IMG/VR virus record: IMGVR_UViG_3300021085_000173
Coordinates: 1 to 27,097 of that record
Direction: 5' to 3' (one strand)
Length of the DNA: 27,097 bases
From: a virus
The notes under the pieces are model-generated. The model was not told the origin of the DNA and searched no databases. It saw only the letters and a program-made list of their open reading frames with translations. The translations under genes were made by a program, and so were the position numbers. Positions 2 to 21,755 of this stretch are shown piece after piece. Every line of letters starts with the position of its first letter. The stretch's first letter is position 1.

Positions 2-172
2 GGGTATCTTCGAGCAGTAGATGATGTTTACTGGTATGACAAGAAAGTATTTGAATTAATAGCAAAGGGAAAGAGTGTAGCTGAATTAAGTAGAGATACA
101 AAGATTGGTTACTATTCTCTTTACAATACATACAATAAAGTAAAGAATAAACTAAAAGACGATTTATTATGA
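2..172 (+). CDS. HTH-like small protein, 5' end outside window
   Basis: The frame is open from the window edge to a TGA at 170-172, giving 56 visible residues; the start lies upstream. The visible part reads as one basic helical domain with a segment like VAELSRDTKIGYYSLYNTYN, which has the length and pattern of a helix-turn-helix (small residue, turn, then a polar recognition helix). This suggests DNA binding, perhaps a small regulator or a sigma-like fragment, but no specific family can be assigned. The stop overlaps the start of the next gene (ATGA), so the two are probably translationally coupled within one early operon. Confidence 0.6.
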   Translation, partial: GYLRAVDDVYWYDKKVFELIAKGKSVAELSRDTKIGYYSLYNTYNKVKNKLKDDLL

Positions 173-908: not shown

Positions 909-942
909 TTTGTTAACATCTCAATTATTTGTTTTATATTTG
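909..942 (+). promoter_or_regulatory. Host-type Bacteroidota promoter upstream of the 967 operon
   Basis: TTTG at 909-912 and TATATTTG at 935-942 match the Bacteroidota primary-sigma consensus (-33 TTTG, -7 TAnnTTTG) with a 22-base spacer. The elements fall in the only real gap (904-966) among the leftmost genes. Transcription would start around 949-952, giving a leader of about 15 bases before the ATG at 967. A short inverted repeat, TTAAC/GTTAA around a T7 loop at 900-916, overlaps the upstream element. Confidence 0.55.
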
Positions 943-2924: not shown

Positions 2925-2941
2925 CATAAATTAAAGACAAG

Positions 2942-3688
2942 ATGAACACACAAGAAATTAAAAGAGGAGAGTACATTGCTTATTACCCAATAAGTAAATT
3001 AAAAATGGCAACAGTAAATAGAGATACTGTAACAAAACACGCATATAATTTTAAAGAAAAATTAAATGATTACGGATGGATGATGCCAATAATAGCATCT
3101 GCAAATGGAGATGTTATAGAGGGACATCATAGAATACATAGTGCTAAACTTTTAAAACAAAAAACTATACCTGCTTACATTGTTGATTGGGTTAATACAA
3201 ATAAAGAAGCAGATCATTTAAAAGCTATTATTAGTTTGAACAATGGAAATAAAGCGTGGACTACTGCTGATTATTTAAAATCATTTGCAAGGGATAATGA
3301 AAATTATAAAGTAGTTTATGAAGCACATCTAAAAAATATAAACAATATTTCTGTTGGTAATGTTGTAAATTGTTTCTTTGGAAAAACAAAAGGAGCTGGA
3401 TTTAAAAGAGGTACATCTAAAATAATAGATTTAAAATTCTCTTTATACCTTTTAGAAAAAATATCTTTTTTAGTTGCTAAACACGGAAAAAGAAAGATAC
3501 AGGCATACTGCGTTAGAGAAATGATTAATATCGGTTTTGTAGCAGCAAAAAGAAATATTAAAACAATGGATTTCTTATTTAATGAGTATGATAAAATGGC
3601 GATTGAAAACAATGGTGTTTTAACATCTATAACATCATTTAAACCAACTATGGAACTTTTCTTAAAATTAAGTCCTAAATCTAAATAA
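2942..3688 (+). CDS. ParB/Spo0J N-terminal domain protein
   Basis: 248 residues. Residues 13-82 match a ParB-like fold: YYPISKLKMATVNRD, then the box DVIEGHHRIHSAKLLKQKTI (58-77) containing the nucleotide-binding G-x-H-R motif (EGHHR, 60-64). The remaining 160 residues are helical and basic and do not resemble the usual ParB HTH. Phage members include CTP- or ATP-binding regulators and nucleases such as osmotically-induced nuclease-type proteins. The C5 methyltransferase follows after one base, so the two are probably co-expressed and may work together on DNA modification. Confidence 0.75.
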   Translation: MNTQEIKRGEYIAYYPISKLKMATVNRDTVTKHAYNFKEKLNDYGWMMPIIASANGDVIEGHHRIHSAKLLKQKTIPAYIVDWVNTNKEADHLKAIISLNNGNKAWTTADYLKSFARDNENYKVVYEAHLKNINNISVGNVVNCFFGKTKGAGFKRGTSKIIDLKFSLYLLEKISFLVAKHGKRKIQAYCVREMINIGFVAAKRNIKTMDFLFNEYDKMAIENNGVLTSITSFKPTMELFLKLSPKSK

Positions 3689-4449: not shown

Positions 4450-4803
4450 ATGAAAAACGATAAGCAATTAGATTACTTAAAAGTAGTATTACTTGGTCAA
4501 CTTACTATTGAAGCAATAGAAGATTTACAAGGAACTAACAAATACAAACAGAACATAAAAAATCAAGGGAACAAGTTTCTAAATATGTTAGAGAGTTATG
4601 TACAAGATGACTACAATACCGTTTACCTAAACAACCAAGAGATGACCACAAACGTATTGAGAAAGATTACTACGTTAATGGACAAGATAAAGAACTCGGA
4701 CATAGATGAACTTGTAATGATTGATGCAATAATAGATAAATACATAGACAATCAAGAATGGTTTATGAAACACGCATCTGCTGACTTTTTAAAATTAGAT
4801 TAA
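4450..4803 (+). CDS. Hypothetical helical protein (117 aa)
   Basis: 117 residues beginning MKNDKQLDYLKVVLLGQLTI. The whole chain appears alpha-helical with acidic and basic faces, no cysteines, no membrane segment and no catalytic motif. It sits at the end of the early block, just before the first copy of the 17-bp late motif, so it may be the last gene of the early operon. Its family is unknown to me. Confidence 0.7.
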   Translation: MKNDKQLDYLKVVLLGQLTIEAIEDLQGTNKYKQNIKNQGNKFLNMLESYVQDDYNTVYLNNQEMTTNVLRKITTLMDKIKNSDIDELVMIDAIIDKYIDNQEWFMKHASADFLKLD

Positions 4804-4817
4804 AATAAATTAAAAAT

Positions 4818-4834
4818 AACTATATACTAATATG
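4818..4834 (+). promoter_or_regulatory. Late control motif, copy 1 (packaging operon)
   Basis: AACTATATACTAATATG; the last three bases are the start codon of the ParB-like gene at 4832. It is one of five copies of WACTATATAYWWATATG in the window, all with identical spacing to a start codon. It lies in the 28-base gap that separates the early genes from the terminase operon. It may be a phage-specific promoter with TATATA as the -10 element, or a translation signal. No conserved upstream element is obvious. Confidence 0.6.
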
Positions 4835-5284
4835 CAACTAATAAACATTCAAGAGGTTAGACCTAATGAAAACAATCCAAGATTTATAAAGGATTACAAA
4901 TTCAAGAAACTTGTAAAATCTATTAAGGAGTTCCCAGAGATGTTAAAGTTAAGACCTATCGTAGTAAATAAGGATATGGTTGTGCTTGGTGGGAATATGC
5001 GTTTAAAAGCGTGTAAGGAAGCAGGACTTAATGAAGTGTGGATTTTAATAGCTGATGAATTAACAACAGATCAAGAGAGAGAGTTTATAGTAAAAGACAA
5101 TGTAGGTTTTGGAGAATGGGATTGGGATGTATTAGCAAACGATTGGAATGGTCAGCAAGTAGACGATTGGGGATTAACAGTAGTACCATTTGAAGATAGT
5201 TTAGAAGAAGTATTAGAAAAACAAATAGCGAAACAAGATAAGGAAACAAACACTTGTGAAGTGTGTGGTAAAAATGTAATATGA
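4832..5284 (+). CDS. ParB-like protein preceding terminase
   Basis: 150 residues. The ParB-like domain spans about residues 1-75: LINIQEVRPNENNPRFI, then LRPIVVNKDMVVLGGNMRLKACKEAGL with the G-G-N-M-R box (53-57). Residues 80-115 (TDQEREFIVKDNVGFGEWDW, then DVLANDW) are typical of the ParB-like proteins found beside phage terminases and DNA methylases. The C-terminus ends in CEVCGKNVI, a CxxC that may be half a metal site. The stop overlaps the terminase small subunit start (ATGA). This position suggests a role in packaging or DNA recognition, but the biochemical activity is not known. Confidence 0.75.
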   Translation: MQLINIQEVRPNENNPRFIKDYKFKKLVKSIKEFPEMLKLRPIVVNKDMVVLGGNMRLKACKEAGLNEVWILIADELTTDQEREFIVKDNVGFGEWDWDVLANDWNGQQVDDWGLTVVPFEDSLEEVLEKQIAKQDKETNTCEVCGKNVI

Positions 5285-5646
5285 AAGAAAACCAAAACAG
5301 AACCGAACACCATAAAAAAGCAATCATAGAAGCGTTGGAAAAATCTTTAGGGGTTGTCACAACTGCTTGTAAGATAGCAGGTGTAGGTAGAACTCAATTT
5401 TATCAATGGTTAAAAGATGATGAAGTATTTGCAAGACAAGTAAAAGATGTAGAGAACATAGCTTTAGATTTTGTAGAGAGTAAGTTGTTTGAGAACATAA
5501 GAGATGGTAAAACATCTGAAACTATATTTTATTTAAAAACAAAAGGTAAGGGTAGAGGTTATGTAGAAAGACAAGAGATAACTGGAGCTGATGGAATGCC
5601 TACTAAATTTGAAATAGAAATAATAAAGCGTGAAGATAAAAACTAA
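5281..5646 (+). CDS. terS: Terminase small subunit
   Basis: 121 residues with an N-terminal helix-turn-helix at about 20-46 (GVVTTACKIAGVGRTQFYQW), followed by acidic helices (VKDVENIALDFVESKLFENI) that in terminase small subunits form the oligomerisation core. The C-terminal GADGMPTKFEIEIIKRED resembles the tail segment that contacts the large subunit in several phages. Start and stop overlap the ParB-like gene (ATGA) and the large terminase (17 bases). It would recognise phage DNA and load it onto the motor. Context and HTH make this secure, though the family is divergent. Confidence 0.85.
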   Translation: MKENQNRTEHHKKAIIEALEKSLGVVTTACKIAGVGRTQFYQWLKDDEVFARQVKDVENIALDFVESKLFENIRDGKTSETIFYLKTKGKGRGYVERQEITGADGMPTKFEIEIIKREDKN

Positions 5647-6784
5647 TGTTGTTTTCGAACATCTTTTAAATTCAGACAAGAAGATTACAATAGAGCAGGG
5701 AGGAACAAGAAGTGGAAAAACCTATAATGTTCTTTTATATATTATCTTTAAATACTGTTTAGAGAATACAGGTAAGACAGTTACAATATGTAGGAAAACA
5801 TTCCCAGCTGTTCGTAGTTCTGTTATGCGTGATTTTTTAGATATACTAAAGCAGTATAAATCATATTCAGAGTTAAGCCACAATAAGTCAAACCACGAGT
5901 ACAAACTAAACGGAAACCTTATTGAGTTTATTTCTTTAGACCAACCACAAAAGGTAAGAGGTAGGAAAAGAAACTTACTATTTATAAATGAAGCAAACGA
6001 ATTAGATTACGAAGATTGGCAGCAGTTAATCTTTAGAACAGAAGATAAAATAATTCTTGACTTTAATCCATCGGATGAATACCATTGGATATATGACAAG
6101 GTAATACCACGAGAAGATGCCGATTTCTATATTACTACTTATTTGGATAATAGCTTTCTTAATAAAAGCATTACTGAAGAAATAGAACGTTTAAAGGAAA
6201 CAGATGAAACCTATTGGCAAATTTATGGATTAGGTTTGAAAGGTGTTTCTAAAGCTACTATATTTAATTACACAGAAGTAAACCACATACCACACGATGC
6301 AGAGTTTATAAGCTATGGAGCAGATGCAGGGTACTCCAATGACCCAACTACTTTAGTTTCTGTTTATCGTAAAGACCACAACCTATATATCAAAGAACAT
6401 ATATACCAAACACAAATGACTACCTACGATATTAGCAGGAAGTGGAAAGATATAGGTATTGAAAGAGAATTGATTTACTTTGATAGTGCTGAACCAAGAT
6501 TAATCGAGGAGTTAAGAAGAATGGGTTTTAATGTACGACCAAGTTTAAAAGGTGCTGATAGTATCAACGCAGGGATAGACCTCTTAAAACGTTTTAAAAT
6601 ACATATAGAGAAAGACAGTCATAATTGCATACAAGAGTTTAGAAACTACAAATGGCAAGAGGACAGATCTGGAAAGATGATAAACAAACCAGTAGATAAA
6701 AATAACCACACAATCGATGCGGTCAGATACGCTACATATTCTGTATTAAGCAAACCTAACTTTGGAAGATACGCTATACAATAA
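5630..6784 (+). CDS. terL: Terminase large subunit (ATPase-nuclease packaging motor)
   Basis: 384 residues. The Walker A motif is GGTRSGKT (24-31). The Walker B motif with catalytic Glu is LLFINEANEL (116-125), and IILDFNPS (141-148) is the following coupling motif. The RNase H-like nuclease domain shows acids at Asp232 (GADAGYSNDPT), Asp285 (FDSAEPRLIEEL) and Asp363 (NHTIDAVRYA). This is the PBSX/Terminase_3 type. The only possible start in this frame is GTG at 5630, because a stop lies just upstream (TAA 5624-5626); the ATG at 5646 is out of frame. It translocates DNA into the prohead and cuts it. A hairpin terminator follows. Confidence 0.95.
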   Translation: MKIKTNVVFEHLLNSDKKITIEQGGTRSGKTYNVLLYIIFKYCLENTGKTVTICRKTFPAVRSSVMRDFLDILKQYKSYSELSHNKSNHEYKLNGNLIEFISLDQPQKVRGRKRNLLFINEANELDYEDWQQLIFRTEDKIILDFNPSDEYHWIYDKVIPREDADFYITTYLDNSFLNKSITEEIERLKETDETYWQIYGLGLKGVSKATIFNYTEVNHIPHDAEFISYGADAGYSNDPTTLVSVYRKDHNLYIKEHIYQTQMTTYDISRKWKDIGIERELIYFDSAEPRLIEELRRMGFNVRPSLKGADSINAGIDLLKRFKIHIEKDSHNCIQEFRNYKWQEDRSGKMINKPVDKNNHTIDAVRYATYSVLSKPNFGRYAIQ

Positions 6785-6795
6785 AAATAAACACG

Positions 6796-6824
6796 ACCTC
6801 TACATATTGTAAGGGTTTTTGTTT
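6796..6824 (+). terminator. Rho-independent terminator after terL
   Basis: ACCTCTACA (6796-6804), a TAT loop, then TGTAAGGGT (6808-6816) form a nine-pair stem with one wobble and one mismatch, followed by TTTTTGTTT. It lies 11 bases after the terminase stop and just before a copy of the late motif, so it marks an operon boundary. Confidence 0.65.
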
Positions 6825-6842
6825 CTAAAATATTTAAGAATT

Positions 6843-6859
6843 AACTATATACTTATATG
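6843..6859 (+). promoter_or_regulatory. Late control motif, copy 2 (tail operon)
   Basis: AACTATATACTTATATG ends in the ATG (6857) of the tail chaperone gene, 18 bases after the terL terminator. It differs from copy 1 at one position. The placement between a terminator and the first gene of the tail block is what a promoter would require. Confidence 0.65.
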
Positions 6860-7501
6860 AAAGTCGATTTAATAGTACCTAATAGTTTAAACGAAGTTAC
6901 TTTAGGACAATACCAAGAGTATTTAAAACTAAAGGATTTAACAGAAACACAACTATCATTCAAGATGATTGAAATATTTTGTGGGGTTAAAGCTGAATAC
7001 GTTAGGTTATTAAAAGCAAGTGATGTTACAGATATTGTAAATATAATGTCTGCAATGTTTGAAAGCAAACCAAGTTTAGTACACACCTTTAAAATGGGTG
7101 GTGTTGAGTATGGGTTTATTCCTAACCTTGATGAGATGAGTTTTGGAGAATATATTGACCTTGATACCAGTATAGGAGATTGGGATAATATGAACAAGGC
7201 AATGGGTGTGTTATACAGACCAATAGAAATGAGAAAAGGAAACAGGTACACTATAAAGGAGTACGATGCAGGAGATACAGAGCATTTAAAAGATATGCCA
7301 TTAGATGCTGTAATCAGTTCTATCCTTTTTTTTTATCATTTAGGGAACGAATTGTGTCAAATTACGATGAACTCTTTGGAGCAAACGGAGGAAACACTCT
7401 TACAAGAGTATCTCAATTCGGAACAAAGTGGGGTTGGTACTCAAGCGTTTATGCTCTCGCTCAATCAGATATTAGACGATTTGAAGATATCACTAAATTA
7501 A
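6857..7501 (+). CDS. Tail assembly chaperone, zero-frame product
   Basis: 214 residues. The N-terminal part (MKVDLIVPNSLNEVTLGQYQ) and central FIPNLDEMSFGEYIDLDTSI, then GVLYRPI, resemble a family I associate with the gene upstream of the tape measure in Bacteroidota phages. After residue 156 the frame passes through nine T (7326-7334) and continues to a stop at 7499-7501. An overlapping -1 frame encodes a better-looking C-terminal domain up to 7596. This is the layout of G/GT-type tail chaperones, in which a minority of ribosomes slip to make a longer protein. Both products would coat the tape measure during tail assembly. The preceding late motif fixes the start. Confidence 0.75.
   Translation: MKVDLIVPNSLNEVTLGQYQEYLKLKDLTETQLSFKMIEIFCGVKAEYVRLLKASDVTDIVNIMSAMFESKPSLVHTFKMGGVEYGFIPNLDEMSFGEYIDLDTSIGDWDNMNKAMGVLYRPIEMRKGNRYTIKEYDAGDTEHLKDMPLDAVISSILFFYHLGNELCQITMNSLEQTEETLLQEYLNSEQSGVGTQAFMLSLNQILDDLKISLN
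7327..7333 (+). promoter_or_regulatory. Candidate -1 ribosomal frameshift site (T TTT TTT)
   Basis: In the zero frame the codons are ATC CTT TTT TTT TAT from 7322. The heptamer T TTT TTT (7327-7333) lets both tRNAs re-pair after slipping back one base. The -1 frame is open from here to 7596. I see no convincing downstream stem-loop or pseudoknot. Confidence 0.55.
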
Positions 7502-7596
7502 AAATGCACGAATGTTTATTATTTCTAACGTTTGAAAAAGAGAAACAAGAAATAGAGGCAAGTAATATAAAAAATAAATTCAATGCAGGGAATTAG
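7333..7596 (+). CDS. Tail assembly chaperone, -1 frame C-terminal extension
   Basis: This is the -1 reading frame relative to 6857-7501. Read from the T-run it gives 87 residues, and a fusion of about 246 residues (159 from the zero frame plus 87). The only independent start is a GTG at 7354. The sequence contains FGTKWGWYSSVYALAQSDIR and LTFEKEKQEIEASNIKNKF, a Trp-rich, helical, compact domain like the T part of tail chaperones and clearly protein-like. It overlaps the zero frame by about 170 bases, too much for two independent genes of this size. It ends 14 bases inside the next gene. Confidence 0.65.
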   Translation, partial: LSFRERIVSNYDELFGANGGNTLTRVSQFGTKWGWYSSVYALAQSDIRRFEDITKLKMHECLLFLTFEKEKQEIEASNIKNKFNAGN

Positions 7597-8050
7597 AGGT
7601 TTTTACCAATTAACGGAAACAATAAAAGAGCAGCTACTAAATGATGTAAATGTCAATACTGTAACTACTGGAGATATAACAGAAATAGATTTATCTAAAC
7701 AAACTATATTCCCTTTAAGTCATATTATTGTAAACAACGTAATCACAGAAGAACAATATTTGTCTTTTAACATTACAGTTATGGCAATGGATATTGTAGA
7801 TGAAAGTAAAGAACCTACAACAGATATATTTAGAGGTAACGACAATGAGCAGGATGTACTGAATACTCAATTAGCAGTATTAAATAGATTGACAATGTTG
7901 TTAAGAAAAGGAAACTTGCATAGTGATTTATACCAGTTAGATGGTTCCCCTAATTGTGAGCCATTCTATGAAAGGTTTGAAAACAAGTTAGGTGGTTGGG
8001 CGTGTACCTTTGATGTATTTATTCAAAACGATATTAATATATGCAACTAA
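7583..8050 (+). CDS. Putative tail completion/terminator protein
   Basis: 155 residues, alpha/beta, starting MQGIRGFYQLTETIKEQLLN. The order helix, strands, FPLSHIIVNN..., then repeated strands (YLSFNITVMAMDIVDE; GGWACTFDVFIQND) resembles small tail-terminator or head-tail joining proteins (gpU/gp17-like), which share an initial helix and a five-strand sheet. It lies between the tail chaperone and an HK97 gp10-like gene, a usual place for such proteins. Its start overlaps the -1 extension and its stop overlaps the next gene by 10 bases. The name comes from context and fold pattern, not a clear family match. Confidence 0.55.
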   Translation: MQGIRGFYQLTETIKEQLLNDVNVNTVTTGDITEIDLSKQTIFPLSHIIVNNVITEEQYLSFNITVMAMDIVDESKEPTTDIFRGNDNEQDVLNTQLAVLNRLTMLLRKGNLHSDLYQLDGSPNCEPFYERFENKLGGWACTFDVFIQNDINICN

Positions 8051-8589
8051 AAGAAACGCAGATAGCTTTAAATAAGTTTGCTAAATATGTTATACAACAA
8101 AGTAGAAGCAGATTAACTAAAGGTAGAAAAAAATATGGTTCTTATAATGACACAAAGAAACTATATAACAGTTTAGATAGTGATATAAAAGTTTCTAAAA
8201 ATAGTTTTCAGTTAGAGTTTATGATGGAAAATTATGGTGTTTTTTTAGATAAAGGTGTAAAAGGTAAAACATCAAGTTCTAAAGCACCAAACAGTCCATT
8301 TAGGTTTGGTAGTGGTACAGGTAAAAAAGGTGGTTTAACAAATGGAATAAATAAATGGGTAAGAAGAAAAGGTTTTCAGTTTAGAGATAAGAAAGGTAGG
8401 TTTATGAGTTATGATAGTACCGCTTTTTTAATCAGTAGAAGCATATATAATAAAGGAACTAAACCAAGTTTATTCTTTACAAAACCATTTGAAAAAGCAT
8501 TTAAGAACTTGCCTAAAGAAATAGTTACAGCATACGCATTAGATGTAGAAAAACTTTTAGGTAATACAATAAAAGACAATTTAAAATAA
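8041..8589 (+). CDS. HK97 gp10-like neck/tail completion protein
   Basis: 182 residues, strongly basic (many Lys and Arg). The segment ENYGVFLDKGVKG (63-75) is the recognisable feature of HK97 gp10-like proteins (Y-x-x-x-L-(D/E)-x-G-T/V-K). A long loop follows, then ISRSIYNKGTKPSLFFTKPF and a C-terminal helix, also typical of family members with the long insert (GGLTNGINKWVRRKGFQFRD). Such proteins complete the neck or tail end during assembly. It overlaps the preceding gene by 10 bases. Confidence 0.7.
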   Translation: MQLKETQIALNKFAKYVIQQSRSRLTKGRKKYGSYNDTKKLYNSLDSDIKVSKNSFQLEFMMENYGVFLDKGVKGKTSSSKAPNSPFRFGSGTGKKGGLTNGINKWVRRKGFQFRDKKGRFMSYDSTAFLISRSIYNKGTKPSLFFTKPFEKAFKNLPKEIVTAYALDVEKLLGNTIKDNLK

Positions 8590-8595
8590 TATACA

Positions 8596-9726
8596 ATGGC
8601 AATAAATTTAAGAAGTCCGTATTATGTAAATTATGGGGATGATGAAATGGCTTATTCTATCCTTAAACTATATGTATGGACTGGTCCAACAGAAGATATT
8701 CCAGCTACACCTCAATACACTTTGAGAAAGAATGTAATTACTGGAGAAACAGAGAACTATTATGAGGTTTCAGAACTTATAAGGGATTATTTAGATTTAA
8801 CTTTTAATAATACATATGAAGACAACCAAGTGCTTTATGTAAAAACAGTTTTAACTGGGTACGAAAGTGATGGTTCAGAAATAACTACTGACGAATTAAC
8901 AAAATTTGCTTTTGATGGTTATTCTTATTTTGAGGAAAATGGTTTTGATGTAGAAGATAATCCATTGATGATTTCTAACAGACAAATATTCGCACTTGCT
9001 GACAACCTTGTTAGAGTTCCAATAAACACAAAAAACAACCCTACCATTACTTTTCTAAAAAATGGTGTTATAGTAGGTACATATAGTTACAATAGTAGTA
9101 CAGATACAGAAGACCAGATTAAATACATCACATTAGGTGGTACTACTGATGACGATAGTTATATAGATAGGATTTTAAATGATGGTGGAGTATATGAAGC
9201 TAATAAATGTATCGTAGCTTTCTTGGATGAATACGAGGTCGGAGAAGTTGATGAAATTAGAGTAAGCGATGACAATGTAGAACTTGAAACAGTAAAGGTT
9301 AAAACTTTAGAAGAATGCAAATACAGTCCAAAGAAAGTAACGTTTATAAATAAGTTTGGAGCATTACAAGATATGTATTTCTTTAAAAAGTCAGTTGAGA
9401 AAATGACTGTTAAAAAAGAAACTTACAAATCAAATATTTTAAGTGGTGGCACATACAATAGAACGCATCACGTTAACAGAGAATTTAATGTAGTTGGAAA
9501 AGAAAGCGTTACTTTTAGTAGTGGTTTTTTAAGTGAGGAATACAACGAAGTGTTTAAACAAATGATGTTGTCTGAAAAGGTTTGGTTTACAAATGAAAAA
9601 TCTGAAGCAATACCAATCAACGTTAAGACATCAAACATCACTTATAAGACATCTTTAAATGATAGGTTGGTAGAATACACTTTTGATTTTGATAATTCAT
9701 TTGACACGATAAACAACATTCGATAG
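8596..9726 (+). CDS. Phage tail/baseplate structural protein (376 aa)
   Basis: 376 residues, largely beta-sheet, with many Thr, Asn and aromatic residues and no catalytic motif. The N-terminus reads LRSPYYVNYGDDEMAYSILK then LYVWTG; the C-terminal third contains VTFINKFGALQDMYFFKKSV then VGKESVTFSSGFLSEEYNEV. I associate these with structural proteins encoded upstream of tape measures in flavobacterial phages. The likely role is distal tail or baseplate, by position and composition. The stop abuts the next ATG with no gap. Confidence 0.6.
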   Translation: MAINLRSPYYVNYGDDEMAYSILKLYVWTGPTEDIPATPQYTLRKNVITGETENYYEVSELIRDYLDLTFNNTYEDNQVLYVKTVLTGYESDGSEITTDELTKFAFDGYSYFEENGFDVEDNPLMISNRQIFALADNLVRVPINTKNNPTITFLKNGVIVGTYSYNSSTDTEDQIKYITLGGTTDDDSYIDRILNDGGVYEANKCIVAFLDEYEVGEVDEIRVSDDNVELETVKVKTLEECKYSPKKVTFINKFGALQDMYFFKKSVEKMTVKKETYKSNILSGGTYNRTHHVNREFNVVGKESVTFSSGFLSEEYNEVFKQMMLSEKVWFTNEKSEAIPINVKTSNITYKTSLNDRLVEYTFDFDNSFDTINNIR

Positions 9727-11793
9727 ATGCAGGTAATTCAGTTATACATAGGTGGGCAAAGAGTTGATATGTTCAAGGATGAGAGTGTAAGTATTACGCA
9801 ATCAATTCAAAACGTAAAAGATATCGGTAAGGTGTTTACTGACTTTTCAAAAACGTTTAGTTTACCAGCAAGTAAAACAAATAATAAAATATTTAAACAT
9901 TATTACAATTTTGATATCGTTGGAGGTTTTGATGCAAGATTTAAAGTTAATGCAACAATAGAATTAAATAATCTACCTTTTAAAAATGGTAAAATAAAAC
10001 TTGAAGGAGTAAGTTTAAAAAATAATAAACCACATACATACAAGGTTACTTTCTTTGGTGGAATTGTAACACTAAAAGATTTATTAGGGGAAGATAAATT
10101 GAGTGTTTTAGAAAGTTTAAATATATCTCCAAGTCCAATTTATGATGAAGATAATTTAAAAAGTCATTTAAGATTAAATCCAGCAACAAACGATTTAATA
10201 GTTCCGCTTATAACACATACGCAAAGATTGTATTATCACACATCACAAGACGTTGCTAATACTGGTAATTTACATTGGCACGGAGGTGGTGGTCAGCACG
10301 TTCACGGATTAGTATGGAGTGAATTAAAATACGCTTTAAGAATACATAATATAATTCAAGCAATACAAACTAAATACAATATAAACTTTTCAGATGATTT
10401 CTTTAACACTACCAATTCTGTTTACTATGATTTGTTTATGTGGTTGCATAGAAAAAAGGGAAACGTTACACAAGGAACTGAAACAACCTTTGTGCAGCAA
10501 ATAACTACTTTTCCAGATTTTACATCTGGAGAGTATTTAGAATGTAGTGACGATTTAGGTTTTTCAATAGTTGAATTAAAAGAAGATATTGATATTAATG
10601 AATTTTACTATAAAATTGTTAGAACAAGCACATCTCCTATAAGTGTACAAATATTAAGAAACGGTTTAGTTGTTGCTGAAGAAACAAATATAACAAGTAC
10701 AAATATAGATATTCAGATACCGCAATCAAGTTGGCAAACTGGAAACTTTACTGTTATTTTTGAATTTGAAGCATCTATGACATTAACATCAACTGGTTTT
10801 TATTTAAGAGCAAGGCAAGGGGATAGTGATGAAGTTAATGAAAACGTATTAGCTACAAATGTAGGTTTGACAGAAACCTTTGATTTTATTATCACACAAC
10901 AAATACCAGAAATAAAGGTTATTGATTTTTTAACCAACTTGTTTAAAATGTTCAATCTTACGTCTTATGTTGATGATAATGATGTAATACAAATTTTACC
11001 ATTAGATGATTATTATGCAGCTGGTGGTTCTTATGATATTACAAAATATATAGACGTAGAAAAAAGTCAAGTAAATATTGCATTGCCTTATAAACAAGTT
11101 TCTTTTTCTTATGAAGATACAGAAACAGTTTTTGCTGCTTTTCATAATCAACTAAACAATAATGAGTTTAGTAAAATAAGTTACACACAAACAGTAAATA
11201 ATGAACAAGTTGATGGTTCGTTATATGATATTAAACCGAGTTTTTCAGTTATGAAATACGAAAGGTTGATTGATGCAGATGATAATTCACAGACATCAAT
11301 ACAATGGGGTTTTTATGTAGATGATAATTTTGAACCTTATATTGGTAAACCTTTAATATTCTACCCAGTTCACACACAAATTAAAGATGGTACAACAAAT
11401 GAAGAAATAAGTTATGTAACCTCTTTAAATGCAGATGGTACTTTTGCAACACACGAAGATATAGTTGGAAGTATAAATATGCCATCTAATTACACATCTT
11501 TTTCAAGTGACACAACAACACCAACTTTGAATTTTAATGCAGAATTAAACGAGTATCATAACACTACATTTACATCAACATTGTTTAAAGAATATTATGA
11601 AGATTACATTCAAGGTGTTTTTAATTTAAAAAATAGGGTTTCAAAAGTAACTGCTTATCTACCATTAAAGGTATTGCTTAATTATTCATTAGCTGATAGG
11701 TTTGTAATAAATGGAAATAGCTATAAAATTAATTCAATAACAACTAATTTAGAAAGTGGCAAATCTGAATTAGAATTATTAAACGACCTATGA
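9727..11793 (+). CDS. Large tail/baseplate protein (688 aa)
   Basis: 688 residues with an N-terminal module MQVIQLYIGGQRVDMFKDES and TDFSKTFSLPASKTNNKIF that looks like the start of tail-hub or baseplate proteins in Bacteroidota phages. A His/Gly loop, NLHWHGGGGQHVHGLVW, falls at about residues 181-197 and could bind metal or sugar. The central region is beta-rich. The C-terminal part (IPEIKVIDFLTNLFKMFNLT, then ADRFVINGNSYKINSITTN) resembles hub-type domains. It probably forms the tail tip and may carry receptor contacts. It starts immediately after the previous stop. Confidence 0.6.
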   Translation: MQVIQLYIGGQRVDMFKDESVSITQSIQNVKDIGKVFTDFSKTFSLPASKTNNKIFKHYYNFDIVGGFDARFKVNATIELNNLPFKNGKIKLEGVSLKNNKPHTYKVTFFGGIVTLKDLLGEDKLSVLESLNISPSPIYDEDNLKSHLRLNPATNDLIVPLITHTQRLYYHTSQDVANTGNLHWHGGGGQHVHGLVWSELKYALRIHNIIQAIQTKYNINFSDDFFNTTNSVYYDLFMWLHRKKGNVTQGTETTFVQQITTFPDFTSGEYLECSDDLGFSIVELKEDIDINEFYYKIVRTSTSPISVQILRNGLVVAEETNITSTNIDIQIPQSSWQTGNFTVIFEFEASMTLTSTGFYLRARQGDSDEVNENVLATNVGLTETFDFIITQQIPEIKVIDFLTNLFKMFNLTSYVDDNDVIQILPLDDYYAAGGSYDITKYIDVEKSQVNIALPYKQVSFSYEDTETVFAAFHNQLNNNEFSKISYTQTVNNEQVDGSLYDIKPSFSVMKYERLIDADDNSQTSIQWGFYVDDNFEPYIGKPLIFYPVHTQIKDGTTNEEISYVTSLNADGTFATHEDIVGSINMPSNYTSFSSDTTTPTLNFNAELNEYHNTTFTSTLFKEYYEDYIQGVFNLKNRVSKVTAYLPLKVLLNYSLADRFVINGNSYKINSITTNLESGKSELELLNDL

Positions 11794-11936
11794 TAAAGAA
11801 TATATTAGATTTATTAAAGTTTGCAAAAGGAGAAACAGAGAGCATACAAATAGCACAGGGTAAATACAAGCTACCTATGACATTAAAAGAGGGGTACAAA
11901 GCAATAAAACAAGAAATAATATGGCAGAAAAAGTAG
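11790..11936 (+). CDS. Small conserved protein before tape measure (48 aa)
   Basis: ATG at 11790 overlaps the previous stop (ATGA) and TAG at 11934-11936 lies inside the tape measure start region, a 16-base overlap. The product begins MIKNILDLLKFAKGETESIQ and contains KYKLPMTLKEGYKAIKQE. It is helical and basic and has no known domain. Coding status is supported by double overlap and by the fact that it fills an otherwise empty 127-base gap between two large tail genes. Confidence 0.65.
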   Translation: MIKNILDLLKFAKGETESIQIAQGKYKLPMTLKEGYKAIKQEIIWQKK

Positions 11937-13780
11937 TAGTTGAATTAGAAGCTAAAACTGGTAAAGCAGAAGCAAGTTTACAAGACGTTGCTAATGCTAT
12001 TAAAGATATTGGTAAACAAAATGAAGAAGTAGTAAAAAGCCAATCTAAATTAGGTAAGGGCATTAAATCATTAGGTAAAGGTTTTAAAGGTTTAGGTCTT
12101 GCTATGAAAGCTGCTGGTTTTGCAATAATAATGAAAATTGTTGACAAACTTGGAGAAGCATTAATGAGAAACCAAGAAATTGCCGATACAGTTAATACTG
12201 TTTTTACTGCAATAGGGATTGTATTTAAACAAGTTTCTGATGTAATGTTAAATGTGTTTAAAAGCGTATCCGATGCTACTGGTGGTTTTGATGCTTTACA
12301 AAAAGTTTTAGGGGGTGCTTTAAGTATATCTATTAATCTTGTTGTAGGTGCTATTCAAGGTATGATGCTTGGAGTTAAGAAAGCACAATTAGCTTGGGAA
12401 GAGAGTTTTTTAGGAGATGGAGACCCAAAAACAATAAAGAGATTAAATTTAGAAATTGAAGAGGTTGGGAATAAGTTAGATGAAACTGGGGACAGAATTA
12501 AAAAAGCAGGTTCTGATATTTCTGATAATTTTATAGAAGCCGTAGGAGAAGTAGGGGAATTAGCCACAGGTGTTGCAGAGGGTGTTTCAAATGCTATTGA
12601 AAAAATAGATGTTAAATCTGCCTTTAGTCAAGCGAAAAGAGTTGTTCAAAACAAAAAGAATTATGGTTTATTAGAAGCACAAAGCCAAAGATTAATTGAG
12701 AAATATGATTTAGAAGCAGAAACACAAAGGCAAATAAGAGATGACGAAAGAAAGAGTGTAGCAGAAAGAATAAAGGCAAATGATGAATTGCTAAATGTTT
12801 TAAATAAACAAGCAAGTGAAGAAAAGAAAGCGATTGATATTCGTATTTCTGCATTACAAGAACAAGTAAGGTTAGAGGGAGAAAGTGCAGAATTAACTAA
12901 AGAGTTGTATGACCTTAATACTGAATTAATAGCTATTGATGCAAAGGTAGCAGGTTTTAAATCAGAACAATTAGTTAATGAGGCAGCTTTACAGAAAGAG
13001 AACATAGAACTTTTAAACACAAAAAAAGAGAGTGAAAATAAATTATCTTTAGAACAAAAAAGGTTTAATGCCGAGCAAATAGAAGATGAACTTTTAAGGT
13101 TAGAGAAATTAAAAGAGGTTGATGAATTAGAAGCTGAACAAGAAACTATTAGATTACAAGCAATAGTTGATAATGCAAATGCAGGGACACAAGCAAAGAT
13201 TGATGCCCAAATAGCATTAGATGAATTTACAAAACAATCAGAACAAACAAGTGTCACAAGGGCAAAAGAAATTTCAAAAGCAAAAATAGATATTGCTAAA
13301 AAAGAGGAAGATGCAAAAAAAGCATCTCTTAATGGTTATGCATCTGCTTTAAGCGAAATCTCTGGTGTTATTGGTCAAGAAACTGCTGCTGGTAAATCTA
13401 TTGCTATTGCATCATCTTTAGTGAATACTTATGCATCCATAAGTGGACAATTAAGTGCCTTTTCAAAAGTACCAGTGCCTGGTTATGCTATTGCACAAGC
13501 AATCGCTACTGGTGTTGTAGGTTTTGCGAATGTTAAAAAAATAGCAAGTGTAAAAATACCGAAATCAAGTGGTGGTGGTGGAGGTAGTGTTGGTTCTCCT
13601 CCATCTGCTACTGTGTCTACACCTCCTGCATTTAATGTTGTTGGTGCAAGTGATACAAACCAATTAGCGAGTGCAATAGGTAGCCAATCACAAGAGCCAA
13701 CAAGAGCATATGTGGTTTCTAATGATGTAACTACTGCACAATCAATGGATAGGAATATTGTAGATGGAGCATCTATTTAA
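11921..13780 (+). CDS. Tape measure protein
   Basis: 619 residues. An N-terminal helical region is followed by Gly/Lys repeats (LGKGIKSLGKGFKGLGLAMK) and a hydrophobic stretch (about 57-150) with AAGFAIIMKIVDKLGEAL and ISINLVVGAIQGMMLGV, which may cross the host membrane on ejection. A long Lys/Glu coiled coil occupies about 240-470. The end contains GKSIAIASSLVNTYASISGQ, VPGYAIAQAIATGVVGFANV and a GGGGGS linker. At the usual 1.5 Angstrom per residue it would set a tail of roughly 90 nm. It has no peptidase or transglycosylase motif. A short hairpin terminator follows. Confidence 0.85.
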   Translation: MAEKVVVELEAKTGKAEASLQDVANAIKDIGKQNEEVVKSQSKLGKGIKSLGKGFKGLGLAMKAAGFAIIMKIVDKLGEALMRNQEIADTVNTVFTAIGIVFKQVSDVMLNVFKSVSDATGGFDALQKVLGGALSISINLVVGAIQGMMLGVKKAQLAWEESFLGDGDPKTIKRLNLEIEEVGNKLDETGDRIKKAGSDISDNFIEAVGEVGELATGVAEGVSNAIEKIDVKSAFSQAKRVVQNKKNYGLLEAQSQRLIEKYDLEAETQRQIRDDERKSVAERIKANDELLNVLNKQASEEKKAIDIRISALQEQVRLEGESAELTKELYDLNTELIAIDAKVAGFKSEQLVNEAALQKENIELLNTKKESENKLSLEQKRFNAEQIEDELLRLEKLKEVDELEAEQETIRLQAIVDNANAGTQAKIDAQIALDEFTKQSEQTSVTRAKEISKAKIDIAKKEEDAKKASLNGYASALSEISGVIGQETAAGKSIAIASSLVNTYASISGQLSAFSKVPVPGYAIAQAIATGVVGFANVKKIASVKIPKSSGGGGGSVGSPPSATVSTPPAFNVVGASDTNQLASAIGSQSQEPTRAYVVSNDVTTAQSMDRNIVDGASI

Positions 13781-13796
13781 AACCTTTTGGTTTTGA
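13777..13796 (+). terminator. Short hairpin terminator after tape measure gene
   Basis: AAAACC (13779-13784), TTTT loop, GGTTTT (13789-13794) form a six-pair stem that extends by a wobble and one A-T pair. It overlaps the tape measure stop codon. Only a short T stretch follows (GATTTAAAA), so termination may be weak. It precedes copy 3 of the late motif. Confidence 0.45.
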
Positions 13797-13823
13797 TTTA
13801 AAAAGACAAAATAAAAACATTAT

Positions 13824-13840
13824 AACTATATACAAATATG
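13824..13840 (+). promoter_or_regulatory. Late control motif, copy 3 (head protease)
   Basis: AACTATATACAAATATG ends in the ATG of the protease gene at 13838. It shares 13 fixed positions with the other four copies and lies in the 57-base gap after the tape measure. Confidence 0.6.
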
Positions 13841-14791
13841 AATATAATAGAGTTAATATTAGACGAAGATAATAACGAAATTGGAATTGAAGCTATTAGC
13901 GTAGTTGAAAACCCTGCTATTGAAGAGGACTTTGTTGCTTTGAATAGTAATATTATAGAATTAAAAGAAGCTGATAAAGAAAAGAAGTTACTTGTTGGTG
14001 CTTTATTGATACCTAACAAACCTATATACAGAAGAAGTGGAGATGAGGAGTATTATATATACTTTTCAAAAGATACTGTTGTTAAAGCATCTCAAATGTA
14101 TTTAATGAATGGTAACCAAAGCAAAGCTACTTTAGAACACGAACACGATATAAATGGACTTACACTTGTTGAAAGTTGGATAGTTGAAGATGAGGTTCAC
14201 GATAAGTCAAGAAAGTTTGGTATGAATGTTCCAGTAGGAACTTGGATGGGTTCTGTTAAAGTAAATAATGATGAGGTTTGGAATGACTTTGTAAAAACTG
14301 GTAAGGTAAAAGGTTTTAGTATTGAGGGTTACTTTGCAGATAAAATGGAAAGACCTAAAGAACCGATTTCAGATCTGCAAGAAGAGTTAAAAGCGATAGA
14401 GGAAGCAGAAGCAGAATATATGTTATCTCAAATTAAGGCGGTTATTAAAAACGATAAACGACTTAAAAAAGGCAAGAGAACAGAAATGGAAAGTTTTTCT
14501 GACTATCCACAATCAGTAAGTAACAATGCTAAAAGAGGTATTGAATTAAATAAGAAAGTAAATAACAAGTGTGCTACACAAGTTGGCAAGGTAAGAGCAC
14601 AACAATTAGCAGACCGAAAACCTGTAAGTATGGAAACTATCAAACGTATGTTTTCATATTTAAGTAGAGCAGAGGAATACTACAAGACAGGAGATACCGA
14701 AGCGTGTGGTTATATATCTTATTTATTATGGGGTGGTAAATCGGCAAAGAGTTGGGCAGAGAGCAAAATAAAACAAGATGAGAAAAAATAA
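13838..14791 (+). CDS. XkdF-like prohead protease with C-terminal LLWGG domain
   Basis: 317 residues. Residues 17-36 (IEAISVVENPAIEEDFVAL) are the XkdF start. The protease part contains HEHD (101-104), LVESWIVEDEV (110-120), GMNVPVGTWMGSVKVNNDEV and GKVKGFSIEGYF (155-166); His101 or His103 and Ser161 are candidate catalytic residues. A helical acidic linker (180-200) leads to a separate domain, 218-312: FSDYPQSVSNNAKRGIELNK ... QVGKVRAQQLADR ... SYLLWGGKSAKSWAESKI. I associate that domain with phage head proteins; its role is unknown. The enzyme would mature scaffold and capsid. Its stop overlaps the next small gene by 14 bases. Confidence 0.75.
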   Translation: MNIIELILDEDNNEIGIEAISVVENPAIEEDFVALNSNIIELKEADKEKKLLVGALLIPNKPIYRRSGDEEYYIYFSKDTVVKASQMYLMNGNQSKATLEHEHDINGLTLVESWIVEDEVHDKSRKFGMNVPVGTWMGSVKVNNDEVWNDFVKTGKVKGFSIEGYFADKMERPKEPISDLQEELKAIEEAEAEYMLSQIKAVIKNDKRLKKGKRTEMESFSDYPQSVSNNAKRGIELNKKVNNKCATQVGKVRAQQLADRKPVSMETIKRMFSYLSRAEEYYKTGDTEACGYISYLLWGGKSAKSWAESKIKQDEKK

Positions 14792-14927
14792 CAATACCAC
14801 ACCAAGTAGAACAAGTCCTAAATCAAGCAAAAGAGGTTGTTTGTGTAAGAACAATACATACTCTAAAAAGTGTTGTGATGGTAGCTTACAAGCACAAGGA
14901 ATAGGTAGAACCTCGACTACTGTATAA
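14778..14927 (+). CDS. Cys-rich conserved microprotein (49 aa)
   Basis: ATG at 14778 overlaps the protease gene's end by 14 bases, in a different frame, and TAA is at 14925-14927. The product is a basic Ser/Asn-rich N-terminus (MRKNNNTTPSRTSPKSSKRG) followed by CLCKNNTYSKKCCDGSLQAQ. The compact C-x-C...C-C-x-G core looks like a small metal-binding or disulphide knot that I have the impression recurs in Bacteroidota phages. It fills most of the 176-base gap before the scaffold gene. It may be a minor head component. Function unknown. Confidence 0.65.
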   Translation: MRKNNNTTPSRTSPKSSKRGCLCKNNTYSKKCCDGSLQAQGIGRTSTTV

Positions 14928-14953
14928 ACGAAAATACAAATTAATTATTTTAA

Positions 14954-14970
14954 TACTATATATTTATATG
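14954..14970 (+). promoter_or_regulatory. Late control motif, copy 4 (scaffold/capsid)
   Basis: TACTATATATTTATATG ends in the ATG of the scaffold gene (14968). It is the most divergent copy (T at the tenth position) but keeps the ACTATATA core and the ATATG end. It follows the Cys-rich microprotein by 26 bases, with no clear terminator in front. Confidence 0.55.
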
Positions 14971-15585
14971 AAACCAAGTGAAATGTTAAGTCAAGTAAAA
15001 ACTCTTTTAGGAGTTGAGGTAAAACTTGAACAAATGAAATTAGAAAACGGAACTGTTTTAGAAGCAGATGCGTTTGCAGAGGGTAACGAAATCTTTATTG
15101 TAACCGAAGATGAGCGAGTAGCTTTACCAGTAGGGGAATACGTTTTAGAAGATGGTCAAACTTTAGTAATCGAAGAAGAAGGTCTTATTAAAGAATTGAA
15201 ATCTGAAAACGAAGAAGCTAAAGAAGAAGAGGTAGAAGTAGAAGCTGAAGAAGAAGAAAAAGAAGAAGAAATGGGTTACGCTACTAAAGAAGAACTTGCA
15301 GAGGTTAAATCAATGATTGAAGAAATCAAAGCAATGTTAGAACCTAAAGAGGAGATGAGTGAAGAGCCAAAAGAAGAATTAAAAGAGGAAGTAGAACTTT
15401 CTGAAGTTCCTCAAGAGGTTGTTAATGAAATCCCAGAAGAAGTAAAACAAGAATTATCTGAACCTGCTGCTGAACCAATTAACACAAACGCAGAAGTTTC
15501 AAAAACACAAGTAAAATTCAATATTGCATCTAAAAGAAAGATGTCTACATTGGATAGAGTAATGAGTAAAATGAATAAATTTTAA
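14968..15585 (+). CDS. Acidic scaffold-like protein
   Basis: 205 residues. The N-terminal 75 residues form a beta-rich domain (VKLEQMKLENGTVLEADAFA; EGNEIFIVTEDERVALPVGE). The middle, about 78-160, is an extreme Glu-rich low-complexity helix (EEAKEEEVEVEAEEEEKEEE), and the C-terminus is basic (KFNIASKRKMSTLDRVMSKM). Acidic helix plus basic tail, placed between protease and major capsid, fits a scaffolding protein whose tail contacts the capsid. A role as decoration or assembly chaperone is possible. No sequence motif proves it. Confidence 0.6.
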   Translation: MKPSEMLSQVKTLLGVEVKLEQMKLENGTVLEADAFAEGNEIFIVTEDERVALPVGEYVLEDGQTLVIEEEGLIKELKSENEEAKEEEVEVEAEEEEKEEEMGYATKEELAEVKSMIEEIKAMLEPKEEMSEEPKEELKEEVELSEVPQEVVNEIPEEVKQELSEPAAEPINTNAEVSKTQVKFNIASKRKMSTLDRVMSKMNKF

Positions 15586-15606
15586 TAACAAATAAATTAA
15601 ATAAAA

Positions 15607-16527
15607 ATGAGTGTATCTTTAACATCAAGCTATAACGGGGAATTCTCGGGTAAATTTATAGCGAGTGCATTATTATCAGCATCAACTTTAGATAGTGGTG
15701 CTATTTCAATTCTACCAAACGTAAAGTTTAAATCTGTTATCCAAAAAGGAGCAACTGATGACATCGTAAAAGATGCATCTTGTGACTTTGTAACTAATCA
15801 AGGAACTTTAACTTTAACGGAAGCAGTATTGCAACCAGAAGAGTTTCAAGTAAATTTAGAACTATGTAAGAAAGACCTACATAATTCGTGGCAGGCTGCC
15901 CAGATGGGGTACTCATCATTCGATAATTTAGCACCATCTTTTGCAGAATTTGTAATTGCTCACGTTGCTGCAAAGGTAGCTGATAGAACAGAGAAAAACA
16001 TTTGGAGTGGAGCAACTGCAACAAGTGGACAATTCGATGGATTTACTGCAAAGTTAACTGCTGATACAGATGTAATCGATGTAACTGCTGGAACTGTAAC
16101 TGCTGCAAACGTAATCGCTGAATTAGGAAAAGTAGTAGATGCTATTCCAACTGCTGTTTACGGACAAGAAGATTTAACATTATATGTATCTTCAAATGTA
16201 GCAAGAGCATACATTAGAGCATTAGGAGGTTTCGCTGCAACTATTGGAGCAAATGGTTCTGACAACAAAGGAACTCAATGGTACAACGGAGGAGAATTAT
16301 CTTTCGATGGTATCAACATTTTCGTAGCTAAAGGATTAGCTGATAACACAATGGTAGCTGCACAAAAATCAAACTTATATTTTGGAACTGGTTTATTAAA
16401 CGACCAAAACGAAGTAAAAGTAATTGATATGTCAGATATCGATGGTTCTCAAAATGTTAGAGTAATTATGAGATTTACCGCAGGTGTACAACACGTTTTC
16501 GGTGGAGATATCGTACTTTATTCTTAA
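15607..16527 (+). CDS. Major capsid protein (HK97 fold)
   Basis: 306 residues, starting MSVSLTSSYNGEFSGKFIAS. The pattern fits HK97-type shells without a long delta domain: N-arm, SILPNVKFKSVIQKGA (34-49), the long spine helix around FAEFVIAHVAAKVADRTEKN, an A-domain region LTLYVSSNVARAYIRALGG, and the final GVQHVFGGDIVLYS. Codon choice shifts visibly toward ATC, TTC and AAC compared with neighbouring tail and fibre genes, as expected for an abundant protein. It is flanked by the scaffold upstream and a terminator downstream. The family is divergent, so the name rests on size, fold pattern, position and codon use. Confidence 0.8.
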   Translation: MSVSLTSSYNGEFSGKFIASALLSASTLDSGAISILPNVKFKSVIQKGATDDIVKDASCDFVTNQGTLTLTEAVLQPEEFQVNLELCKKDLHNSWQAAQMGYSSFDNLAPSFAEFVIAHVAAKVADRTEKNIWSGATATSGQFDGFTAKLTADTDVIDVTAGTVTAANVIAELGKVVDAIPTAVYGQEDLTLYVSSNVARAYIRALGGFAATIGANGSDNKGTQWYNGGELSFDGINIFVAKGLADNTMVAAQKSNLYFGTGLLNDQNEVKVIDMSDIDGSQNVRVIMRFTAGVQHVFGGDIVLYS

Positions 16528-16554
16528 AATTAATTAATAATCATTAAAGGGGGT

Positions 16555-16586
16555 GGGTATGCGAAATGCACATCTACCCTTTTTTA
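16555..16586 (+). terminator. Terminator after major capsid gene
   Basis: GGGTA (16555-16559) pairs with TACCC (16575-16579), with an inner TGC/GCA helix and a bulge, followed by T6. It lies 27 bases after the capsid stop. No late motif follows before the next gene, so some readthrough must feed the tail-tube gene, lowering its level relative to capsid. Confidence 0.6.
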
Positions 16587-16606
16587 TTTAAAACAATATA
16601 AAAACT

Positions 16607-17134
16607 ATGGCTTGTTCATTAACAACTGGACGTAAAGTACCTTGTAAATCGGCAGTAGGTGGTATTAAAACTATTTACTTTGCTGACTATGGAACTTTAG
16701 GAGATGCTACTATCGTAGCAGGAGAGATTACTGGTTTAGCAGGAACTCCAGATTTTTTCCAATTTGATGTAAAAGGTAGTTCTGCTTTAGAAACTGCAAT
16801 TAATTCATCAAGAGAAAATGGAACAACTTTCTATGAAAGTACATTAACTATGTCTTTAACATTCCAAGACAAAGCAACTCAAGAAGAGTTGAAACTAATT
16901 GCACACGCAAGACCTCACGTTGCTATTGAAGATTATAATGGGAATTATTTCTTATTAGGATTGGAACACGGAGCAGAGGTAACAGGTGGTTCTATTACAA
17001 GTGGAGCAGCAATGGGAGATTTAAGTGGTTACTCTTTAACGATTGTAGCACAAGAAACTGCACCTCCTTACTTTGTAACATCAACAGTAATTACAGATGA
17101 TGCATCTGCGGTTCAAATTGACCCAACTGCATAA
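16607..17134 (+). CDS. Putative major tail (tube) protein
   Basis: 175 residues starting MACSLTTGRKVPCKSAVGGI. The chain is beta-rich with a central helix (STLTMSLTFQDKATQEELKLI), then VAIEDYNGNYFLLGLEHGAE and a terminal strand region. This strand-helix-strand layout, with a substitution-like N-terminus and a loop GGSITSGAAMGDLSGYSLTI, matches tail-tube proteins of Bacteroidota phages as I know them. It sits between two terminators, as highly expressed genes often do. Alternative: a head decoration protein. Start is ATG at 16607, preceded by an A-rich leader. Confidence 0.6.
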   Translation: MACSLTTGRKVPCKSAVGGIKTIYFADYGTLGDATIVAGEITGLAGTPDFFQFDVKGSSALETAINSSRENGTTFYESTLTMSLTFQDKATQEELKLIAHARPHVAIEDYNGNYFLLGLEHGAEVTGGSITSGAAMGDLSGYSLTIVAQETAPPYFVTSTVITDDASAVQIDPTA

Positions 17135-17157
17135 TTAAATTTAACTTTATATTAAAG

Positions 17158-17184
17158 GGGTATCTTAACGGATACCCTTTTTTT
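17158..17184 (+). terminator. Strong terminator after tail-tube gene
   Basis: GGGTATC (17158-17164) and GATACCC (17171-17177) are a perfect seven-pair stem with a TTAACG loop, followed by T7 (17178-17184). It is the clearest terminator in the window and lies 23 bases after the stop. Copy 5 of the late motif follows 29 bases later. Confidence 0.8.
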
Positions 17185-17213
17185 ATTTAATACATACAAA
17201 AAATAGTATTTGT

Positions 17214-17230
17214 TACTATATACTAATATG
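17214..17230 (+). promoter_or_regulatory. Late control motif, copy 5 (portal operon)
   Basis: TACTATATACTAATATG ends in the ATG at 17228. It directly follows a strong terminator, so transcription of the portal operon needs a new start here or readthrough. It also decides the start codon, since an in-frame TTG at 17210 would begin upstream of the motif. Confidence 0.65.
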
Positions 17231-21753: not shown

Positions 21754-21755
21754 AT

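Follow-up and report, generated by a model that had tools for sequence, protein, structure and literature searches.

Five copies of a 17-base-pair element, each ending in the start codon of a gene, occur in the late block of a marine bacterial virus, in a record of 27,097 bases (IMG/VR record IMGVR_UViG_3300021085_000173, classed as linear, a class that often means a fragment; this whole stretch is called the window here), and the explanation that best accounts for them, to which we give a probability of roughly 0.8, is that they are phage late promoters, read by a phage sigma factor resembling the extracytoplasmic function (ECF) type, with probably leaderless first mRNAs. A pattern search of the window places the exact copies at 4818–4834, 6843–6859, 13824–13840, 14954–14970 and 17214–17230, all on the + strand; these five copies, each with a start codon as its end, had been described in a first-pass annotation of the sequence, together with the invariance of 13 of the 17 positions (positions 1, 10, 11 and 12 vary), and both descriptions hold. 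Each promoter would have two elements, counted from the A of the ATG: CTATATA at -12 to -6 as the -10 element, and upstream of it one like (T/C)AAAATA at roughly -31 to -25. Host RNA polymerase carrying a small phage ECF-like sigma would read these sites, with region 4 on the upstream element and region 2 on the -10 element. The sigma would be made early from a host-type promoter and would then activate the packaging, tail, protease, scaffold/capsid and portal blocks. Transcription from ECF promoters begins at the position that the ATG occupies here, so each block's first mRNA would probably be leaderless, or have a leader of about 2 nucleotides (nt).

Simulating the window 2000 times with a first-order Markov model, one strand each time, never produced the exact pattern. 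With up to three mismatches there are 11 matches against 5.9 expected, a number reached in 3 of 100 shuffles, so that these looser matches are mostly chance. A weight matrix covering positions -32 to -1, without the ATG, was built from 33 related phage sites and no window rows; three window rows and the site in L160 were left out of its training set, and close orthologues of some window sites stayed in. A scan of this kind had been proposed as a check, and the five sites outrank every other position on both strands of the window (scores in table 1): the runner-up scores 3.5, the best match over 60 simulated windows 12.5, and, among 31 chosen gene starts, the remaining 26 all score 0.3 or less. 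At four of the five copies no possible start lies between the preceding in-frame stop and the ATG. The exception is gene 17228 (genes of the window are named by the position of their start), whose mechanical open reading frame (ORF) reaches back to a TTG in the same frame at 17210, which lies 5' of most of the -10 box. The second codon is A-rich in all five promoter-linked genes (4832 CAA, 6857 AAA, 13838 AAT, 14968 AAA, 17228 AAA), and (A/C)AA is favored after the ATG in an alignment of nonredundant sites. The capsid candidate (15607) and gene 16607 are without any copy.

To the first-pass annotation the element was the 17-mer only; this stands as the -10 half of a promoter, the upstream half having been overlooked, as had the tail of a sigma-like gene at the left edge of the window. 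An alignment on the ATG of 37 nonredundant sites (87 before near-identical ones were merged, with one kept row, L160 at 5552, that is probably chance) shows TAACTATATAY at -15 to -5 and a second block, (T/C)AAAATA, at -31 to -25. The four positions -30 to -27 are A in 36, 37, 36 and 35 of the 37 sites, against 85–90 of 182 control starts from the same loci, and the upstream block was not part of the search pattern that gathered the sites. It should be noted that sites too near contig ends were left out of the two-part alignments, the leadered site of L020 among them; that L001 and L002, which are pieces of the window, were left out of the locus scans; and that L085–L087, being the same contigs as L014, L015 and L066, were left out of the counts of boxes, leaders and sigma types.

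A scan of related phages for the motif, also suggested earlier, found it at start codons: the exact motif gives 60 matches in 36 of 81 loci, every one on the + strand and opening an ORF (54 closed ORFs of at least 149 residues and 6 that leave the contig; many of these contigs are near-identical). The shorter box [AT][AG]CTATATA occurs 111 times on the + and 9 times on the - strand of 55 clade-A loci, where about 29 are expected per strand, and [AT][ACT]CGTTATA 87 and 16 times in 43 clade-B loci, where about 8 are expected. The tail, protease and scaffold genes of relatives carry CTATATA, GCTATATATAAGT, CGTTATA or TTATATAT according to clade, mostly in the same register, so that the -10 box appears to switch jointly at these three genes between clades. 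Repeated, conserved, intergenic sites can also be operators, bound by a phage repressor or some other DNA-binding protein and lying at gene starts by chance, and we regard this as extremely improbable here, given the strong strand bias along the direction of transcription and the asymmetric two-part form, operators usually being palindromic.

The distance between box and start codon varies among relatives. The ATG of gene 4832 lies 12 nt after the reference C of the box in the window itself and in the orthologues of L004, L005, L009 and L015, and 22–33 nt after it in those of L010, L020, L023, L032 and L090 (65–87% identity), with CTATATACTAATA identical in L010, L023, L032 and L090. The orthologues of gene 6857 have their ATG at 24 nt in L094 and L104 and at 20 nt in L098, behind the boxes of their own clades. 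For the clade-B boxes with a nearby gene start (n=71), the ATG is at 12 nt in 33, at 22–23 nt in 20 and at 15–16 nt in 6, the last being the scaffold gene. The upstream A-block is kept at 20 nonredundant leadered clade-B sites (A in 17, 20, 13 and 20 of 20 at four positions); at 13 clade-B matches classed inside ORFs, two of which are really promoters at an ATG, A is found there in at most 9. Among 185 sites selected for the two elements plus A as the 12th base, 138 have the ATG at 12 nt. This variable distance indicates that the element is a promoter and that its placing on the ATG is a preference. The genes behind the 22–23 nt clade-B promoters were considered as orthologues of gene 4832, and none of the 20 match it; the seven inspected are a 52-residue ORF. 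This conserved, MELLRYEIKAGFFKG-like ORF comes first behind a CGTTATA promoter, with a 10–11 nt leader, at L058 7894, L045 4033 and L068 8066.

These distances bear on the alternative raised with the first description of the motif, namely that the ribosome reads it on the mRNA as a dedicated signal for starting translation. All five window copies terminate in the start codon, and the hosts are described as lacking Shine-Dalgarno sequences in their mRNAs and using the context of the start codon (PMC6847099, for Flavobacterium), both of which would suit such a signal. The same kind of promoter with the ATG at 20–33 nt in orthologues of genes 4832 and 6857 argues against it, as do the second block at a fixed distance upstream, the change of the element together with a phage protein (see below) and the capsid candidate without a copy, and we consider a translation signal very improbable.

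The complete genome of the cultured relative P12024L (35.7 kilobases, from the Nonlabens host IMCC12024) has CGTTAATA or CGTTATTA with the C at -12 before the head, packaging and tail-region genes gp01, gp05, gp08, gp42, gp45 and gp46, and upstream of these sites lies a block resembling AAACAAA; gp37 has a near-match with the C at -11, and no late-type site was seen before gp09–gp36. CGTTAAT stands at -12 in 5 of the 44 starts of this genome against 0.004 expected. Sites of the host type, TATATTTG or TACATTTG, stand before gp16, gp25 and gp31; there are further matches, several of them inside genes. The sigma-like gp35 sits within the gp31–gp36 run. Small minus-strand genes at three places in P12024L (2750–3031, 5123–5412 and 25649–26011 of L083) have their starts back to back with late promoters on the opposite strand; by eye, a host-type TATATTTG box on the minus strand adjoins or overlaps the late upstream block in the first two, the third being less clear. 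The late-region sites of P12024L, the upstream block at fixed spacing, the joint change of box and sigma, and the leadered orthologues together favor the late-promoter reading of the first-pass annotation, and the five sites are very probably phage late promoters on this comparative evidence.

Sigma group and promoter type appear to go together. Sorted by contig and type, with patterns that required an A at the 12th base and an A-rich stretch upstream, the loci give 12 rows with sigma group A and promoter type A, 16 with B and B, 1 with C and C, 3 with F and B, 16 (from 13 contigs) with E and the two TTATATAT spellings, and 2 with group B and a T-type match, both of which lie at 9 nt and are probably chance. 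One box type, or a spelling variant of it, thus belongs to each sigma group in 48 of 50 rows, with 2 weak exceptions. Among the 103 loci having a site, 53 have at least two, and 6 of these combine types: in five it is just the two TTATATAT spellings that occur together, and in L119 a weak T-type match is responsible.

A search for a phage sigma factor, the third check proposed at the outset, led to the sigma-like gene whose end lies at the left edge of the window (2–172). The encoded 56 residues are 98% identical to the proteins of L018, L005 and L004; full-length relatives have about 165 residues, and 40 of the 72 full-length sigmas are in A3. The P12024L gp35 protein aligns with full-length relatives (24% identity to L018; L058 against P12024L gives E 2.1e-6 in a one-genome search), and four of five full-length proteins match phrog_1740, a sigma factor family, weakly. 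An AlphaFold model of the L018 protein is all helical with a mean predicted local confidence (pLDDT) of 85.1. The best 50 of 245 Foldseek rows (E up to 10) all have titles that name sigma factors or chains from complexes of transcription initiation; residues 1–83 superpose on region 2 of sigmaE bound to its -10 strand (Z 8.2, 2.9 A, 77 residues), and residues 100–165 on region 4 of sigmaE bound to -35 DNA (Z 8.8, 2.3 A, 66 residues). The predicted fold thus resembles those of sigma factors, mostly of the ECF type, with regions 2 and 4 only in 165 residues. Searches of bacterial genomes for such a sigma gave 51 pattern matches, none of them a relative by tblastn; in cultured phages, tblastn with clade B and E sigmas gave no match and with gp35 only the records of P12024L and P12024S, both of which are cultured. 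In L014 (2778–3275; the same contig as L085) the sigma-like gene has a stop after 58 codons, a sequencing error or a broken gene.

That a small phage sigma-like protein of this kind reads the late promoters is, from its predicted fold and its association with promoter type, quite likely. The sites might have another reader, either a phage activator working with the host sigma or an RNA polymerase that the phage encodes outside this fragment: most of the sigma gene lies outside the window, about a quarter of the genome would be unseen if its length equals the 35.7 kilobases of P12024L, and contact between the sigma and the promoters is itself inferred. Promoter type goes with sigma group, however, and no single-subunit RNA polymerase was found with PF00940 in P12024L, where T7 served as a positive control, nor a T7-type one in five fragments searched in the same way without that control. 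The Bacteroidota host consensus TAnnTTTG (taken from PMC9723704) is also absent from the five sites, and another reader is distinctly unlikely.

With +1 assumed at the A of the ATG, the two promoter elements stand at fixed spacing and the -10 core falls at -11 to -9, as in ECF promoters; the ECF factor sigmaH of Mycobacterium tuberculosis is described as reading G-11 T-10 T-9 (PMC6411747), which is exactly what clades B and C have, clade A having T-11 A-10 T-9. Counted without a pattern that demanded them, T is at -1 in all 23 clade-A and all 11 clade-B sites with the ATG at 12 nt, and a purine is at -2 in all 23 and in 7 of the 11, respectively. Of the sites that have both elements and their ATG elsewhere, 6 of 7 in clade A (at one of the six, L075 at 1258, no gene start was found nearby) and 15 of 20 in clade B still have A as the 12th base. 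The most likely start of the transcript is therefore the A of the ATG, and a leaderless start there is, on this analysis of register, likely. A start 1–4 nt beside it, giving a late promoter with a very short leader, would be in keeping with the -2 purine of clade A and with L089 (13 nt) and L126 and L160 (10 nt), where the distance from the reference C differs. The -2 purine is present in just 7 of 11 clade-B sites, however, against T at -1 in all 34, and the A kept at the 12th base where no ATG is present at 12 nt and the agreement of the ECF register with the A of the ATG likewise make a short leader unlikely. Leaderless mRNAs are put at 5.5% in F. psychrophilum (PMC9723704), and leaders of over 10 nt at 87% of mRNAs in F. 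johnsoniae (PMC6847099); phage transcripts are often leaderless according to one paper (PMC5312081), which tempers the surprise.

Several observations weigh against late promoters with an ECF-like sigma and leaderless mRNAs. In L089 both elements are present, the expected +1 is T and the ATG follows one base later, and in L126 and L160 the ATG comes two bases early. A clade-B matrix run on P12024L places 2 of its 7 sites among the best 14 matches. A promoter site is shown, under the type patterns, by 46 of 96 sigma-bearing loci; CGTTATA serves two sigma groups, B and F, so that groups do not correspond singly to types; and these patterns were chosen from the same data and from related contigs, so that the counts are not independent and the association is a pattern, not a p-value test. 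The sigma is tied to the window genome through its tail, by the 98% identity over 56 residues. Among five full-length proteins, the Pfam model of sigma region 2 exceeds its cut-off in P12024L gp35 alone (25.2 vs 24), L058 and L075 falling below it and L018 and L036 having no match; the region 4 model matches none of the five, and a sequence profile search of the PDB with the sigma-like protein found no sigma. The model has a low predicted template modeling score (pTM 0.45), the best Foldseek match has E 1.5e-3 (probability 1.00) and none reaches 0.001, and the structure tool warns that Z under 13 can be common among helical folds. In view of this warning, consistency among the listed rows and between the two domains outweighs any one score; the high root-mean-square deviation of the whole-protein superposition and the pTM leave the placing of the two domains uncertain.

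Table 1. Features of the window that concern its putative late promoters and their predicted reader.
Feature	Position	Strand	Composition or context	Evidence
Putative late promoter 1	4800..4834	+	TTAAAATA block, -10 CTATATAC, ATG 4832	matrix 34.7, rank 1; exact motif
Putative late promoter 2	6825..6859	+	CTAAAATA block, -10 CTATATAC, ATG 6857	matrix 33.8, rank 2; orthologous promoters
Putative late promoter 3	13806..13840	+	ACAAAATA block, -10 CTATATAC, ATG 13838	matrix 32.5, rank 3
Putative late promoter 4	14936..14970	+	ACAAATTA block, -10 CTATATAT, ATG 14968	matrix 18.4, rank 4
Putative late promoter 5	17196..17230	+	ACAAAAAA block, -10 CTATATAC, ATG 17228	matrix 16.0, rank 5; terminator just upstream
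Sigma-like protein, C-terminal 56 residues, region-4-like	2..172	+	cut by window start	homology
Host-type (Bacteroidota sigma-A) promoter-like site	910..942	+	TTG...TATATTTG, before early genes	pattern scan
Intrinsic terminator	17154..17181	+	between head block and late promoter 5	terminator scan

The five copies had been said to open the packaging, tail, protease, scaffold/capsid and portal blocks, and the gene types assigned with PHROGs bear this out. Gene 4832 is ParB-like and opens the packaging block; gene 6857 (phrog_32199, with no function assigned) opens the tail block; gene 13838 is head maturation protease-like; gene 14968 is scaffold-like (second half of phrog_24921) and is followed by the major capsid candidate; and gene 17228 is a small gene ahead of the portal gene 17574. 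Small and large terminase, unassigned tail-block genes, a virion structural protein and a tail protein complete the assigned content. The genes at 13838–14791 and 14968–15585 match positions 3–199 and 209–312 of the 349 of phrog_24921; P12024L has a single 349-codon gene (gp01) there, and in the window each part has its own putative late promoter.

Terminators had been proposed before copies 2 and 5, and a weaker one before copy 3. The terminator scan of the window confirms that of copy 5 and found none before copy 2, where several relatives have, by eye, a hairpin plus T-run; copy 3 has a weak one by eye. The early genes, early and late being judged by gene content and not by expression, carry no copy of the motif and have a host-type promoter-like site, as noted previously; the TTG...TATATTTG scan that gave it has two further + strand matches, both inside gene 9727–11793. 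A sigma-70 scan gave fewer promoter-like sites than shuffles (62 vs 77.2) and was not used. Elsewhere in the window, 20476–26618 holds an uninterrupted row of five related tail-fibre-like genes, two of which (22951 and 24158) begin almost identically; the row looks like a receptor-binding repertoire. The 169-residue product of 2263–2772 has, as its one listed DnaA domain, the C-terminal DNA-binding domain (PF08299, E 3.7e-12).

We lean toward a broader reading, in which a large, mostly uncultured group of marine phages would run much of its late program from leaderless mRNAs by way of an ECF-like sigma, with +1 at the A of the start codon, and sigma and promoters would have switched together several times. 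If so, this would occur in hosts with few leaderless genes of their own, the one cultured relative of the group infecting a flavobacterium, and the CTATATA, CGTTATA, CGTTAATA and GTTTATATA types would form a natural set of possibly orthogonal sigma-promoter pairs. Clade-specific pairs would show a sigma factor and its regulon changing specificity together. All five late blocks of the window, like many in relatives, have the promoter fused to the start codon, and a single short element would thus set the start of both transcription and translation; without Shine-Dalgarno sequences and with few leaderless mRNAs in Flavobacterium, this would make a case for how such ribosomes start on a 5'-end AUG.

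A search of the open-licence literature of PMC, which leaves out subscription papers, gave no publication dealing with the late promoters of this phage group or with a late sigma in it. A phage sigma with its own late promoters is a known kind of system, and it is the placing on the start codon and the joint switching that look new. The gp55 protein of T4 is likewise a small phage sigma with a short, -10-centered late promoter; to our knowledge, T4 late promoters differ from the window sites in having no -35-like block and in not being placed on the ATG. The gp36 protein of phiEco32 is described as an ECF sigma that directs transcription of the middle and late genes of the phage from the motif tAATGTATAtA, 6–8 nt upstream of the start (PMC4281155), and the sigma of phiEco32 and other Kuravirus phages (gp36; CDS32 of SU10) is given an ECF label and RNA polymerase binding (PMC7881722). 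In phage 7-11, promoters for the phage sigma are reported as inferred from sequence (PMC4331800), much as here. The window phage would thus resemble phiEco32 in a small phage ECF sigma for late genes; these other phages are of another type and infect E. coli and other enterics, the likeness is one of descriptions, and those descriptions make no mention of start codons at +1. The ECF promoters of Flavobacterium (motif SM6), as described, have CGT in the -10 region, where the clade of the window has CTATATA instead, and serve host secretion-system genes, only 5.5% of the mRNAs in that study (PMC9723704) being leaderless. In phiKZ, the core of the late promoter overlaps the start point and contains TATG, as the window sites would (PMC4666361), whereas transcription there starts at the G of TATG, so not at a leaderless ATG, and the reader is a phage multisubunit polymerase. 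The sites also resemble the TA-led leaderless genes of bacteria, in which a -10-like box lies about 10 bp upstream of the start codon (PMC3160421); such genes are given for 1 of 37 Bacteroidetes/Chlorobi genomes in that survey, and the -10 box of the window is specific to the phage.

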